Part shown: positions 55,370-63,502 of the stretch, one piece after another
How the letters are laid out: every line of letters begins with the position of its first letter
Position numbering within the stretch: the first letter of the stretch is position 1
Assembly (NCBI RefSeq): GCF_031312535.1
Contig: NZ_CP133594.1
Location: 1,903,934 to 1,967,933 of the forward strand
Direction of reading: 5' to 3'
Length of the DNA stretch: 64,000 nucleotides
Origin: Methanolobus mangrovi
GTDB lineage: Archaea; Halobacteriota; Methanosarcinia; Methanosarcinales; Methanosarcinaceae
Notes under the pieces: model-generated
Told to the model about the DNA's origin: nothing
Database searches by the model: none
What the model saw: the letters and a program-made list of their open reading frames with translations, nothing else
Made by a program: the position numbers and the translations under genes

Positions 55370-58300
55370 ATGTCCTCAAAAAATGAAAAATGGCAATTCT
55401 GGATAGACAGAGGAGGTACATTCACCGATATTGTTGCCCGCAAACCCGACGGACGACTGATTGCACATAAGCTTCTGTCAGTGGACCCGGAACATTATGC
55501 AGATGCTGCAATGCACGGTATCAGGACCTTACTTGGAATAGAAACCGAATCCACGATGCCAACGGAGATCATATCGTCAATCAAGATGGGAACCACTGTT
55601 GGAACTAATGCATTGCTTGAACGTAAAGGAGAGCCAACAGCACTTGTTATTACAGAAGGCTTCAGGGATTCACTGAGGATTGGATACCAGAACAGGCCTG
55701 ATATCTTTGCTTTGAAAATTGAACTGCCGGACCTGCTCTATGATGAGGTCATCGAGATAAGGGAACGCTACAGTGCATCAGGTGAAGAACTGGTTGCCCT
55801 TGATGTGGAGGATGCCAGGAAGGGACTTGAAAGGATATATTCCCATGGAATACGCTCGCTTGCCATCGTCCTTATGCATGCATACCGTTATCCTGAACAT
55901 GAACTTCAGCTCAGGAAAATTGCAGAGGATATCGGTTTTACCCAGATATCACTTTCACACGAAGTCAGCCCTTTGATGAAGCTTATAAGCAGCGGAGAGA
56001 CAACTGTTGTAGATGCTTATCTTTCCCCGGTGCTGCGAAGATATATAGACATGATAGGCGACACTCTTGAAGCCGGCGGAGATAATACAAAGCTAATGTT
56101 CATGCAGTCCAACGGCGGACTGGTGGAAGCTGCACAGTTCAAAGGAAAGGACTGTATTCTTTCAGGACCAGCCGGAGGAATAGTTGGAGCTGTGGAAACA
56201 TCCGTAATGGCAGGCTTTGAGAAAGTTGTGACTTTTGATATGGGGGGAACATCCACTGATGTAGCCCATTACAACGGAGAATATGAGAGGAGTTTTGAGA
56301 CAGAAGTTGCAGGCGTTCACCTGCGCTCACCCATGCTTTATATTCATACAGTGGCAGCGGGTGGAGGTTCCATACTTCATTTCGATGCAGGGAGATTCAG
56401 GGTTGGACCGGATTCCGCAGGTTCTGAGCCGGGACCTGCTTGTTACCGTAAGGGCGGACCACTCACAATTACCGACTGTAACCTGATGCTCGGAAAGATA
56501 GATCCACAGCATTTCCCACATGTATTCGGCCACAGTGCAGACATGCCACTTGATACTGTTGCTGTGAAGAGGAAGTTCTCAGCCCTTGCAGAAGAGGTCA
56601 GTATATTTACTGGGGAGAAGCACAGTGCTGAGCAGGTTGCCGAAGGATTCCTGAAAATTGCCATTGAGAACATGGCAAATGCCGTCAAAAGAATATCCAT
56701 CCAGCGTGGGTATGACATAAAGGATTACGCCCTTTGCTGCTTTGGAGGAGCGGGGGCTCAGCATGCATGTGGTGTCGCGGATGCTCTTGGAATTAAGAGA
56801 ATATTGATACATCCCTTTGCAGGAGTGCTTTCTGCATACGGAATGGGACTTGCGGACCAGCGTATAATGAAAGAACATGCTGTGGAAAAGAAACTTGGAA
56901 GAGAACTTATAGCAGAAATCCGGGCCATTGCTGCTGAACTGGAAAAAAGCGGCCGGGAAGAGATGCTCATGCAGGGCGTTTCAGATATGGATATAAGTGC
57001 ACTGCATAAGGTCCATGTCAAGTATCAGGATGCTGGAACTTCTATTATTGTTGACCTTGGGAACGAGGAAGAGATCAGGAACCACTTTGAAAATGAGCAT
57101 AAGAGCCGTTTTGGCTTTACCATGGAAAACAAGGAACTTGTGATAGAGGCGGTTTCCACTGAGGTTATTGGTGCAGGAGAATCTATGCAGGAATCCAAAA
57201 TAGTGGATGTTATCATGGAGAAAGCAGGCAAGCTACCTGATACCACCATGTACACCTGCGGTGCTTTTCACAGCACACCTGTTTACAGGAGGGAAGAACT
57301 TGTTACCGGAACGGAAACCGGGGTTATTGGACCTGCTATTATCGTGGAAACAAATACTACTGTTGTAATCGAACCGGGATGGAAGGCCGAGATTACGGAT
57401 AATAAGGAACTGGTGCTTGAAAGGACTATACCCCTGCCTAAGAGGGAATCTGTTGATACTGAAGCAGACCCGGTGATGCTTGAGATATTCAATAACAGGT
57501 TCATGTCCATTGCACAGCAGATGGGATACACACTCCAGAATACATCTTATTCTGTGAATATCAAGGAGAGGCTTGACTTCTCATGTGCCCTTTTTGACGA
57601 GGCCGGGAATCTAATTGCCAACGCGCCTCACATACCTGTGCATCTTGGATCTATGGGGGAAGGTGTCAGGTCGATAATCAGGAAATTCCCAGATATGGAA
57701 TCAGGAGATGTTTTTATGCTCAATTCTCCCTTTGAAGGCGGGACGCATCTCCCTGATATTACGGTCGTTACTCCTGTTTTCCGTGAAGGCAGGGTTGCAT
57801 TCTATGTGGCTTCAAGGGGGCATCATGCGGATATTGGAGGAATTACACCGGGGTCCATTCCACCGGAAAGCAGGCATATCGAGGAGGAGGGCGTGCTGAC
57901 CAGTGGGCAGAAGATAGTCTGGCAGGGGAAGTTCCTTGAAAATGAGATGAAAGAGTGGCTGGCTTCGGGAAAATATCCGGCACGTAATCCATTCCAGAAT
58001 ATAGCGGACCTGAAGGCACAGGTTGCCGCCAATGAGAAGGGCGCCAGGGAGCTTGAAAAGCTTGTTGAACATTTTTCCATGGAAACGGTACAGGCATACA
58101 TGCAGCATGTGATGGATAATGCGGAAGAGTCGGTGAGAAGGGTTATCGAGGTCCTTAAGGACGGGGAATACTCACTTTCCTTTGATGACGGGACAGTTAT
58201 CCATGTGAGGGTTAACATTGACCACATGGAAAGGACAGCACACATCGATTTCACCGGAACTTCCAGGCAGCATCCAGGTAATATGAATGCTCCGGTGGCT

Positions 58301-59020
58301 GTGTGCAAGGCGGCTGTTCTCTATGTGTTCAGGTCGCTCGTGGAGAAGGATATTCCGCTTAATGAAGGATGCATGCGACCGCTTATGCTTACGATTCCTG
58401 AAAAGAGCATACTGAACCCTGAATATCCTGCGGCTGTGGTGGCAGGGAATGTTGAGACTTCGCAGTACATCGTTGATGCGCTTTTCGGAGCGCTGGGTGT
58501 GATGGCAGGGTCGCAGGGTACGATGAACAATTTCACTTTCGGGGATGAGGAGTTCCAGTATTATGAGACCATTTGCGGTGGTTCCGGTGCAGGGGATGGT
58601 TTTGATGGAACTAATGCTGTGCAGACCCATATGACAAATTCAAGGATAACCGACCCTGAGGTGCTGGAATGGAGATTCCCTGTGAGGCTGGAAGAGTTCT
58701 CTGTCAGGAAAGGAAGCGGCGGTGGAGGAGAATATAGCGGTGGATGTGGAGTTGTGAGAAAGATACGGTTCCTCAGGCCTATGAGAGCAGCTATTATTTC
58801 TAGCCACAGGAAAATCCCACCGGCAGGTTTGAATGGTGGAGAGAACGGAAAGGTGGGGCACAATTATGTTGTCAGAGCTGGAGAGATTATGAACGCTGAC
58901 GGAAAGATTGAGGAACTTGAAGGAAGAGCACTTGTTGATATGAATAAGGGAGACCTGTTCGTGGTGGAGACACCCGGAGCAGGTGGGTTTGGTCAAAGAA
59001 GAAAAGAAAGTATTAAGTAA
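55370..59020 (+). CDS. ATP-dependent 5-oxoprolinase (fused HyuA and HyuB)
   Basis: 1216 residues. Residues 8 to ~680 are the HyuA/ATPase half ([77 protein letters not shown]), and residues ~700-1216 are the HyuB half ([86 protein letters not shown]). The fusion is typical of eukaryote-type 5-oxoprolinase, while many archaea have separate subunits. It opens 5-oxoproline to glutamate using ATP, or acts on hydantoins. The gene ends 71 bp before the nuclease gene and may have come from bacteria. Confidence 0.9.
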
Positions 59021-59598: not shown

Positions 59599-60306
59599 AT
59601 GAGGCATCGGATATTCTATAATCCTTTTACTTTGATTTTTACGCTTATACTCACTTTTATCCTTGTATTCAGCATCTCTATTCTTTTCTTCGGTTTTGTG
59701 AGCACTGCATTTGCAAAGATAGGTTTCTCATGGAACGATGCACTTATCCTGCTTCTTGCATCCCTTATCGGAAGCAGTATCAACATACCCCTGAAAACTA
59801 TCGAGTCCGAGACACCCATCGAGAATCAGAAATACGTTAAGGTCTTCGGAGTTTCATACAGGATACCTTTCAAGCAGACATACAAAACAAAGACCACCAT
59901 AGCCATAAACGTAGGTGGAGCACTCATCCCCATAATAGTCTCCCTCTACCTGCTAAGCCTCTTCCCTGATGCGGCGATCTATGCCAGCTACGCTATCCTC
60001 ATAGTCACCCTGATTACAAAAAGCGTAGCAAGACCGGTAAAAGGCGTGGGCATCGTCTCTCCTGCACTACTCCCACCGATAGCCGCAGCCCTGAGTTCCA
60101 TTATAATTGTCTACACAACCCAGGTCCAGCACGAACTCATCTTCGCCATAGCCTACACCAGCGGCACCCTCGGCACCCTGATCGGTGCTGACCTGCTGAA
60201 CATGAGAGCCATCACAAAACTGGGCGCTCCTGTTGTGAGTATCGGCGGTGCAGGAACTTTTGACGGGGTGTTTCTGGCGGGAGTTATTGCGGTGTTGTTG
60301 GTTTGA
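59599..60306 (+). CDS. DUF1614 membrane protein
   Basis: 235 residues, about seven membrane spans. The motif SWNDALILLLASLIGSSINIPL and the second-half INVGGALIPIIVSLYLL ... KGVGIVSPALLPPIAAALSS ... SGTLGTLIGADLLNM ... SIGGAGTFDGVFLAGVIAVLL are characteristic. Function unknown. It is followed by a hairpin shared with the convergent methyltransferase gene. Confidence 0.88.
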   Translation: MRHRIFYNPFTLIFTLILTFILVFSISILFFGFVSTAFAKIGFSWNDALILLLASLIGSSINIPLKTIESETPIENQKYVKVFGVSYRIPFKQTYKTKTTIAINVGGALIPIIVSLYLLSLFPDAAIYASYAILIVTLITKSVARPVKGVGIVSPALLPPIAAALSSIIIVYTTQVQHELIFAIAYTSGTLGTLIGADLLNMRAITKLGAPVVSIGGAGTFDGVFLAGVIAVLLV

Positions 60307-60327
60307 TGTGAGAAAATTCATATCGAA

Positions 60328-60352
60328 CCTAGGTTTGACAGTCAAACTTGGG
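60328..60352. terminator. Bidirectional hairpin between convergent genes
   Basis: CCTAGGTTTG (60328-60337) and CAAACTTGGG (60343-60352) pair over ten positions, counting two G-U pairs, with loop ACAGT. TTTTC lies on the minus-strand side. Confidence 0.6.
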
Positions 60353-60424
60353 ATTCATACGAAAAATTGAGATCTGCCATGATCTACAGTACTAATATAG
60401 ATCATACTGCATCTGCAGCTTTTC

Positions 60425-61798
60425 TCAAACAGGCTCCCCCGGAATATCGCCCATGATCTCATACGATATCTTCCTGTACAGTGCCAGGTATTCCTCGGTG
60501 GGTTCCATGTCGTATTCAGAGCGGATGTTGTAGCATTTGTTGAAAGGCTTGCCTTCAGGCGGGGTTTTGAGGCGCTCGACATATTTAGCGTATATTTTAG
60601 CTACCAGTTTGTTGGCTTCTGAGAGCGTCAGGTGGGTTGCCATCTGTGCCATCTCACCCATGAACCGGGATTCCAGTCCGGAAGAATGATCAGGTGTACT
60701 TCCCAGGCGACCGGTTGGTCCTAACAGTATATTTCTTCCGCATACGGTATCCCCTATTGCCTGTGCAGCGGTTTCATAGAACATCATATCGGTGCAGATA
60801 CCTGCAGCATTCCAGTAGTATCTTGCAGTATAATAGTTCATATTTCTGGAAATAGCAAGTGATGCCATGTTGGATGCCCATAGTATCTCTTTAGCAGAAG
60901 ATGAACCTGTGTCAGCATGCACCGCACCGGATGCGTGTATGCTTGAGTGTGCCAATACTTTGGATTGTAAAGTCTCTGCCACATCTATGATTGCAAGTCC
61001 CTCAGGAGATCCGATGCATGGTCCTCCGTAAACAGGTACCTGGCCTGAAATATAGTGGTTGCCGTGTTCCTGGTGGTAGATGCATTTTGACAGGGTTTCA
61101 TAATCTACTTTCAGGTCATCCATATAGACTTCCTGGGGGTCAGCACTTGAATAAAGCTCATCTGAGGATACAAGTAAAGATGATGTAGTAAGAGTTGAAG
61201 TACTTGGACCCATAAGTGCAAGCCCTTCTCTTCCGGCTATCTTTGTAGCCAGTCTCTCATTTCTGGATGCTTTAAGTACTGCAAGCATCTCCAGCGGACT
61301 CTTGGGTTGTATATACTCCCCACCGAATTGTTTCATAGCTCCGCTGTAGATTCCCTGTACAACATTTTCCTGTACAGAACTTAAATTAATGTAAAGGAAA
61401 TTCTCCTCTGATACACTTCCCCCCATAGGCCCACCAATGATTATAGGTGGATATGATACCATAGGGTAGCGGTTTGGCACAACTACTTTCTCCTTGAGCC
61501 TTCCGATCTCAAGGGGATTTGTGGTGTTCAGGGCCTTTAAAATATCTTCTTCATCGATATTGATGATTCGCTGGGTGCTCCTGCAGAATATCCCTACGGA
61601 ATGAAGAAGCTCAATGCCTGCTTCAAAAACAGAATCTGCGACTTCAAGATCTTCTGGTACATAAACAGAAGGGTCATACTCTATTTCGTATTTAAGGGCC
61701 AGTTCCTCTGATTTTTTGAAAACTTTAATGTCATGCTCTCTTTCAGTCCGTTTTTCCCCATCGATAGCATATTTCAGGTACTTGTAGATGTTTTGCAT
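60425..61798 (-). CDS. MtmB-family (monomethylamine) corrinoid methyltransferase without pyrrolysine
   Basis: 457 residues from ATG 61798 (AAAAGGAG at ideal spacing; ATG 61804 is too close), the length of MtmB (458). Motifs follow MtmB closely: FEAGIELLHSVGIFC, GGPMGGSVSEENF, PKSPLEMLAV, QVPVYGG, AAQAIGDTVCGR and GLESRFMGEMAQ. In MtmB, pyrrolysine (UAG codon 202) lies in a Gly-Val-Pyl-Gly-Pro context; here the aligned sequence is ALMGP with an ordinary ATG Met196 (61213-61211), and the frame has no UAG. It is therefore a full-length, non-pyrrolysine homologue, probably acting on another methylated amine or quaternary-type substrate with a corrinoid protein. No corrinoid-protein gene is adjacent; the nearest partner is the divergent mtbA/mtaA-type gene. 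Confidence 0.9.
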   Translation of the reverse strand: MQNIYKYLKYAIDGEKRTEREHDIKVFKKSEELALKYEIEYDPSVYVPEDLEVADSVFEAGIELLHSVGIFCRSTQRIINIDEEDILKALNTTNPLEIGRLKEKVVVPNRYPMVSYPPIIIGGPMGGSVSEENFLYINLSSVQENVVQGIYSGAMKQFGGEYIQPKSPLEMLAVLKASRNERLATKIAGREGLALMGPSTSTLTTSSLLVSSDELYSSADPQEVYMDDLKVDYETLSKCIYHQEHGNHYISGQVPVYGGPCIGSPEGLAIIDVAETLQSKVLAHSSIHASGAVHADTGSSSAKEILWASNMASLAISRNMNYYTARYYWNAAGICTDMMFYETAAQAIGDTVCGRNILLGPTGRLGSTPDHSSGLESRFMGEMAQMATHLTLSEANKLVAKIYAKYVERLKTPPEGKPFNKCYNIRSEYDMEPTEEYLALYRKISYEIMGDIPGEPV

Positions 61799-62482
61799 GA
61801 TCATCTCCTTTTTAGAAAAAGAATAGCCCTATCTAAATAATCAGATATATTCGTTTTTAATCAAAAGTACTCATTTGCTTCAGTTATTTATATTTTTCCA
61901 TCACACCATTATCTAACTTACAAATTAGATTACAAATACAGTACACTGATGTTTGTTTCATATAGTTTGTTTAGAAAATAGTATAATTATTCTGTAGCAA
62001 GTATTATATTAAATTTCTTTTTATTCCAGGGAAATAACATGCATAACCAATTATCTATTGTATTCCTTACCCCCATTTACTTATCAGCCGGATTCAACAC
62101 TTTCCCAAATCACTCATTTTTTTATATTATATTCTCTTTCCCGTGACATTCTTTTTAAATTACTATATATATTTTATGCATTGCGCATATATCAGGTAAA
62201 TATTTTGTTTTAATATGATTGTAATAAATATTCATAATGTAACATCACCCAACATAATTATTTAGTTTTGCCTGTTGCATCTAAAAACAAGCTCATGCGA
62301 CACCACAGCATCCATAGTTACTTGTATAATCTGTTTTTACAATGAGCGTATTTATCTCCTATTTATGTCTTTCCAGGCGGTTTTGTCCTGCTCTGTTATT
62401 TATACTTATCTATCACGCAATAGAAAAATATATATGCTAGTGAGTGTAACTTGAGACTTATCACACTAAGGAGTTTGAATAT
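61799..62482. promoter_or_regulatory. Long AT-rich divergent region of methyltransferase genes
   Basis: No ORF of note in 684 bp. On the minus strand AATATAT near 61844-61850 could be the TATA box of the MtmB-like gene, 46-52 bp before its ATG. On the plus strand AAAATATATATGC (about 62427-62439) lies about 45 bp before mtbA. Long AT-rich divergent leaders are usual for methyltransferase genes in Methanosarcina and often bind Msr-type regulators; no repeat was convincing enough to name. Confidence 0.5.
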
Positions 62483-63502
62483 ATGGCAGAATATACCCCT
62501 AAAGAAAGATTAGCACGTGCATTGACAGGTCAGCCTGTTGACAGAATGCCTGCTGTCTCAGTCACCCAGACCGGAACTGTGGACCAGATGGAAGCCTGTG
62601 GTGCCTTCTGGCCAGAAGCTAACAACGATGCGGAAAAGATGGCAACACTTGCAGAAGCAGGCCACACCGTAGTAGGATTTGAAGCTGTACGCGTACCTTT
62701 TGACATCACTGCAGAAGCTGAGTTCTTCGGTTGTGAGATAAAGGATGGTACAAAAGAACAGCAGCCATCAGTTGTCGGTCATGTTGTAAAGACAGTTGAG
62801 GACATCGAAGCTCTCAGAGGCTACAACCTCGACCACGGTAGAATTGGTGTTGTATGTGAGGCGATCAAGATCCTCGCAGACAAGTATGGCGAAGAACTTC
62901 CTATCATGGGCAGCATGATCGGTCCTTTCTCCCTTGCACAGCACATCAACGGTGATGAATGGTTCATGGCTATTTTCACAAACGAAGCATTTGCCCTTGA
63001 ACTGATGGAGTTCACAACCGATTTCAACGTTGCATATGCAAAGAAAATGGTTGAGAACGGTGCTGACACTATGGTCATCATTGACCCGACAGCAAGTGCA
63101 CAGCTTATCGGTGCTGAGTTCTACGAGAAATTCGTAGTACCTTTCCACAAGAAGATATGTGATGCAATGCATGAGCTCAACGTACCAGTAGTATTACACA
63201 TCTGTGGTGACACAACCCAGGGTCTTGCACTCATGGAATCATCCGGTGTGGATGGTATCAGCGTTGACCAGAATGTCGATGCAGCAACCGCCGTAAGTAA
63301 GGTTGAAAAGGCAATCATCGTTGGAAATCTCGACCCTGTGAACATGCTCTGGAACCAGACACCTGAAGCTATCAGGGAGCAGTCCCAGAAAGTCCTGGAT
63401 GCTGGTGTAGGACTGCTGGGTCCTGGATGTGGTATTGTGAGCAAGACCCCTACAGAGAATCTCCAGGCAATGGTAGAGATGGCCAAGAGCCACAAATACT
63501 GA
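62483..63502 (+). CDS. mtbA: Methylcobamide:coenzyme M methyltransferase (MtbA/MtaA type)
   Basis: 339 residues, uroporphyrinogen-decarboxylase fold. Zinc ligands His239, Cys241 ([10 protein letters not shown]) and Cys316 ([10 protein letters not shown]) are in place, with [22 protein letters not shown] at the N-terminus and [21 protein letters not shown]. It transfers the methyl group from a methylated corrinoid protein to coenzyme M. Overall it is closer to MtbA (methylamines) than MtaA (methanol), judged by memory, so the symbol is provisional. AAGGAG at 62468-62473 is its ribosome-binding site. It is divergent from the MtmB-like gene and may be its CoM-side partner. Confidence 0.85.

Follow-up and report, generated by a model that had tools for sequence, protein, structure and literature searches.

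The range of methylated compounds that can be turned into methane is set by methylamine methyltransferases. In March 2026, a non-Pyl homologue of MtmB was published as a tetramethylammonium/choline methyltransferase, MtqB of Methanococcoides methylutens Q3c (PMC13044021). It methylates cob(I)alamin from tetramethylammonium and choline at 37 and 42 nmol/min/mg, respectively, and weakly from monomethylamine (MMA; 11 nmol/min/mg), with no activity on TMA or betaine (PMC13044021). The MtqB proteins of strains Q3c, AM1 and SA1 are 78-87% identical, with an invariant Met and Cys in the pocket, and MtqB is the only non-Pyl enzyme that Q3c produces on tetramethylammonium and choline; the same authors gave the function of the other non-Pyl MtmB clades as unknown (PMC13044021). 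The statement in the initial annotation of the present locus that no pyrrolysine-free equivalent is established for MtmB is therefore outdated. Non-Pyl MtmB as such has been known since 2026, and what is new here is a conserved non-Pyl MtmB clade distinct from MtqB. MtgB and the non-Pyl MttB proteins (COG5598) offer an analogy: there too, a family of Pyl enzymes has a branch without Pyl, whose members act on quaternary amines.

The gene, its family and its fold

The gene lies on the minus strand of the window, a stretch of 64,000 nucleotides of the Methanolobus mangrovi genome. The following features were mapped around it.

60425..61798, minus strand: pyrrolysine-free MtmB homologue, 457 aa, stop codon TGA, PF05369 at 491 bits
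61804, minus strand: alternative start adding 2 aa (longest ORF 61804..60425, 459 aa)
61805..61809, minus strand: ribosome-binding site AGGAG, 6 nt upstream of the 61798 start; CTCCT conserved in the 12-locus alignment
61211..61213, minus strand: ATG codon of Met196, at the position of the Pyl UAG codon (Pyl202, M. barkeri MtmB)
61884..61897, minus strand: TATA-box-like AAAAATATAAATAA upstream of the MtmB-like gene, conserved in 12 intergenic regions of the clade
62424..62435, plus strand: TATA-box-like AAAAATATATAT upstream of mtbA, conserved in the same 12-region alignment
62483..63502, plus strand: mtbA, methylcobamide:CoM methyltransferase (NF041608 equivalog, 665.8 bits, cut-off 600)

The start was placed at 61798, giving a protein of 457 aa, because this second ATG is the start in nearly all orthologues and the spacing of the AGGAG fits. 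TATA-like elements are thus conserved before both the MtmB-like gene and mtbA, and AAAAATATAAATAA probably has a promoter role. No credible Rfam match to a PYLIS element was obtained in 60300-62600.

The initial annotation had described a full-length MtmB homologue, leaving its strand unstated, with Met196 from an ordinary ATG at the Pyl site and no UAG in the frame, and our analyses bear this out. The PF05369 (MtmB) match extends over nearly the full length (cut-off 25) and is the sole Pfam family reported; no match to PF06253 (MttB/MtgB superfamily, COG5598) was found in Pfam, and NCBIfam and PHROGs likewise gave no match. In the phmmer (HMMER) comparison with MtmB 1l2q (E=2e-68), residues 7-444 align on 10-445 and Met196 stands opposite the X of Pyl202. 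In-frame TAG is absent from the whole reading frame. The AlphaFold2 model (pLDDT 94.1), a predicted full-length barrel without added domains, compares with the MtmB crystal structures 1tv2, 1l2q and 1nth at TM 0.94 and 1.4 A rmsd, and with MttB and MtgB structures at TM of only about 0.5-0.57. By its full-length PF05369 match and its MtmB fold, the protein is a member of the MtmB superfamily. It shares with Pyl-type MtmB (1l2q/1nth/1tv2) the length, the TIM-barrel fold, 31-32% identity, Glu229 and His294, but it lacks UAG and Pyl, has Asp258, Glu259 and Gln333 replaced, and is not co-operonic with mtmC. MtgB and non-Pyl MttB, by contrast, belong to the PF06253 family, whereas the window protein matches PF05369 only.

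Conservation, phylogeny and pocket residues

The same closed 2.62-Mb genome contains three further mtmB genes with one TAG each, while the MtmB-like gene has none. About 53 TAG-free homologues of the same clade, full or near-full length and 53-95% identical, were recovered by a class-wide profile search; in the family's 112 genomes, TAG-free members of the clade were found at 80-95% identity (Methanolobus, Methanomethylovorans), at 60-65% and at 53-60%. These homologues rule out a sequencing error or a recent point mutant, the two doubts attached to the initial annotation: every orthologue is TAG-free and the clade is old. This clade, hereafter the window clade, is found in most Methanolobus and in Methanomethylovorans, Methanococcoides, Methanohalophilus, Methanohalobium and Methanosalsum, and in most genomes of the family's obligately methylotrophic genera. 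Named carriers include Methanolobus vulcani, M. psychrotolerans, M. bombayensis, M. profundi and M. halotolerans, a Methanomethylovorans MAG, Methanococcoides vulcani and seepicolus, and Methanohalobium and Methanosalsum MAGs. The search of the family's genomes gave no clade-level match in those taken to be Methanosarcina. The Methanococcoides members are 81-97% identical to one another. The dN/dS was 0.017-0.035 in seven Methanolobus pairs; the gene is under purifying selection and its function is kept. No Methanolobus expression data on the protein were found in the literature searched, and the available part of the M. vulcani B1d proteomics report does not mention it.

In a tree of 57 proteins (IQ-TREE, LG+C20; support given as bootstrap/SH-aLRT), unrooted and with some long branches, four groups were resolved: the window clade (100/98), Pyl-MtmB (100/99), an MtqB-like clade (100/100) and a non-Pyl clade, 'A2' (100/100). 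The M. mangrovi protein falls outside Pyl-MtmB, in the separate 100/98 clade, and is not nested in Pyl-type MtmB, a placement that the initial annotation had named as refuting its reading. The MtqB-like and Pyl-MtmB groups stand on one side of a 100/99 branch. A grouping of the window clade with the MtqB-like clade was rejected (AU test, p=0.0019), and one of the window clade with Pyl-MtmB was disfavoured (topology test, p=0.038).

The MtqB-like clade is an assignment of ours, made from Methanococcoides genomes G025 and G021. The G025 gene is directly downstream of an mtbC-like corrinoid gene, the two proteins are 77% identical, near the published 78-87%, and the Met/Cys pocket is present, from which we infer that this clade is MtqB. 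'A2' was dropped as a candidate for MtqB because a single Methanococcoides genome carries it and the Met/Cys signature is absent. It resembles the window clade as a non-Pyl PF05369 group with methylamine or BCCT genes adjoining in some genomes, and differs in being only 30-36% identical and in having Val, Asp or Thr, not Tyr, at position 333; it is also uncharacterised. The 'A2' loci (L064, L065, L066, L067, L068 and L069; mostly Methanosarcina) carry a GLCCxSPPF-type motif at the Pyl site, and one member adjoins a BCCT transporter and a Pyl-type MtbB. In genome G096, taken to be Methanosarcina, an MtqB-like gene with a corrinoid gene is divergent from an A2-type non-Pyl MtmB (L195:5394-9208), placing two non-Pyl MtmB classes side by side.

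The pocket was surveyed from the alignment in M. barkeri numbering, with 28 window-clade, 5 MtqB-like and 15 Pyl proteins. The Pyl-site residue in the window clade is Met, Leu, Phe, Val or Ile, always hydrophobic; Met is therefore unlikely to be catalytic. The emphasis of the initial annotation on Met does not hold up. Glu229, Glu259 and Gln333, the residues around Pyl in MtmB, are present in all 15 Pyl enzymes. In the window clade, Glu259 is replaced by Gly or Ser (26/28), Asp258 by Ser or Thr (28/28) and Gln333 by Tyr (26/28), with Glu229 kept in 25 and His294 in all 28 proteins. The M. mangrovi protein itself has Gly252 for Glu259 and Tyr327 for Gln333, and keeps Glu229. All five MtqB-like proteins have Met205, Cys259, Met260 and Tyr333 and have lost Glu229. 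The corresponding signature positions are Ser199, Gly252 and Gln253 in M. mangrovi, and none of Met205, Cys259 and Met260 is conserved in the window clade. Since Tyr333 and the loss of Glu259 are common to both groups, yet Glu229 is kept, the residues suggest a ligand related to that of MtqB but different from it.

Gene neighbourhood and candidate partners

Each of the 19 Methanolobus and Methanomethylovorans loci examined has mtbA divergent from the MtmB-like gene, and at least 12 of them have mtmC-mtmB, often with mtbC-mtbB, convergent with that gene. The M. mangrovi mtmC-mtmB cluster is located about 70 kb away. In one deeper subclade, comprising Methanohalophilus and some Methanolobus, the divergent neighbour at 6/6 loci is a BCCT betaine/choline/carnitine transporter gene, 375-478 bp away and in three different surroundings. 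Of 14 extended loci, 7, among them that of M. mangrovi, have an OpuAC-type betaine ABC transporter behind argS. Corrinoid genes adjoin only two clade relatives, a B12-binding protein gene 41 bp upstream at L078 and a corrinoid gene about 178 bp downstream at L076. None is next to the M. mangrovi gene, where mtbA is adjacent: the immediate neighbours are DUF1614 and mtbA, and an mtqC-type corrinoid gene directly upstream is absent. The M. mangrovi genome has 16 B12-binding matches and one MttB, with TAG; neither a BCCT transporter nor a non-Pyl MttB was found in it.

Two orphan corrinoid genes were considered as partners and rejected. The one at 857 kb sits with RamA, flavin oxidoreductase and MtbA genes but no methyltransferase gene, and its distribution across Methanolobus does not follow the MtmB-like gene; the one at 282 kb is patchy and does not track it either.

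Other observations were made on the surroundings of these genes. Locus L262:2815-11370 (G000:C1, about 850.8-859.4 kb) encodes RamA, an HTH regulator, a bile-acid/bilirubin-reductase-like flavin oxidoreductase, a corrinoid protein and MtbA, with no substrate methyltransferase; its corrinoid gene recurs in many Methanolobus. An orc1/cdc6 gene and a hydantoinase-A-like gene follow the window-clade gene in most Methanococcoides loci and in one further genome (L070, L072, L074, L200, L201, L202, L203 and L204), an odd but conserved link to replication. Finally, window positions 55370-59020 (plus strand) encode a 1216-aa protein in which hydantoinase A and B domains are fused; the methyltransferase gene has its 3' end 1.4 kb away.

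Substrate class and alternative readings

We lean slightly towards a methyltransferase that would depend on a corrinoid protein, take its methyl group from a quaternary (pre-activated) methylammonium compound and feed MtbA. The protein, provisionally 'MtxB', would be a substrate-specific methyltransferase of methylotrophic methanogenesis, with an MtmB-type TIM barrel that holds a quaternary methylammonium compound or another onium compound with comparable pre-activation. One methyl group would go to Co(I) of a corrinoid protein, and MtbA, the product of the divergent gene, would pass it on to coenzyme M. In such a pocket a hydrophobic residue would fill the Pyl site, with Glu259 lost and Gln333 replaced by a pocket Tyr, as in MtqB; pyrrolysine would not be needed, as a quaternary nitrogen leaves readily without further activation. 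This reading draws on the MtmB-only fold, the purifying selection, the pocket changes, the corrinoid, mtbA, BCCT and OpuAC neighbours and the MtqB precedent. It is opposed by the lack of an own corrinoid gene, by orphan corrinoids that do not track the gene, by the absence of a BCCT transporter or non-Pyl MttB from the genome and by the retained Glu229, unlike MtqB. Moreover, the BCCT-linked relative occurs in the genus of Methanohalophilus mahii, a species for which choline and betaine are reported not to support growth (PMC3017947), and the betaine transporters near clade genes may serve osmoprotection only.

An orthologue of MtqB, simply using tetramethylammonium and choline, would likewise belong to the MtmB superfamily, lack Pyl and Glu259, have Tyr at 333 and presumably feed MtbA; both substrates are reported for MtqB (PMC13044021), and Methanomethylovorans hollandica, of a genus with the gene, dominates tetramethylammonium-fed sludge (PMC5748143). 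However, the M. hollandica genome has no MtqB or MtqC homologue (PMC5748143), and identity to the MtqB-like clade, itself assigned by inference, is about 27%, below the 32% to Pyl-MtmB. With the AU rejection, the missing Met/Cys signature, the retained Glu229 and the lack of a corrinoid gene directly upstream, we set orthology aside as improbable. A corrinoid methyltransferase for a non-quaternary substrate, be it another amine, a methylthiol or a methoxy compound, we regard as unlikely, if a little less so: Glu229 and His294 are kept as in Pyl-MtmB, M. mangrovi has no BCCT transporter, and the gene occurs in most Methanolobus irrespective of their known use of quaternary amines, but primary and secondary amines would have to be activated, normally the role of Pyl, and BCCT transporters do adjoin the genes of relatives.

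The two remaining alternatives change the activity itself. A non-catalytic paralogue, such as a sensor or a binding partner of a corrinoid protein, would agree with the missing corrinoid gene, and a regulator would be well placed with mtbA on one side and the mtm/mtb genes on the other; conserved clade-specific pocket residues, the pairing of two relatives with corrinoid genes and the full-length barrel with no added domain make it quite improbable. Least probable of all is a Pyl-independent, low-activity MMA methyltransferase acting as a backup MtmB. It would match the frequent convergence with mtmC-mtmB and the weak MMA activity of MtqB (PMC13044021), but Pyl, Glu259 and Gln333 are all replaced and three Pyl-type mtmB genes are present in the same genome.

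For the favoured quaternary-compound methyltransferase, the substrate is probably not MMA. One different from that of MtqB is plausible, judging from the sequences, because the clades are distinct. Since MtqB alone among the non-Pyl enzymes of Q3c is produced on tetramethylammonium and choline, the window clade, if present in Q3c, would answer to something else.

The proposal in the initial annotation of a new methyltransferase with its own substrate therefore stands in part: the protein is MtmB-like, Pyl-free and old, with orthologues and a substrate that is probably not MMA, but MtqB precedes it as a non-Pyl MtmB. The window clade and MtqB give separate Pyl-free branches around the Pyl enzymes, so that one can test whether pyrrolysine arose in MtmB from an ancestor acting on quaternary amines or was lost from it. 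That most Methanolobus and several other obligate methylotrophs share a conserved, uncharacterised methyltransferase points to a substrate that has been overlooked. We consider it evenly balanced whether the clade is a third functional class of the MtmB superfamily, after those for MMA (Pyl) and for tetramethylammonium/choline (MtqB), with a methylated substrate of its own that would serve nearly all obligately methylotrophic Methanosarcinaceae; in that case a widespread precursor of methane would have been missed.
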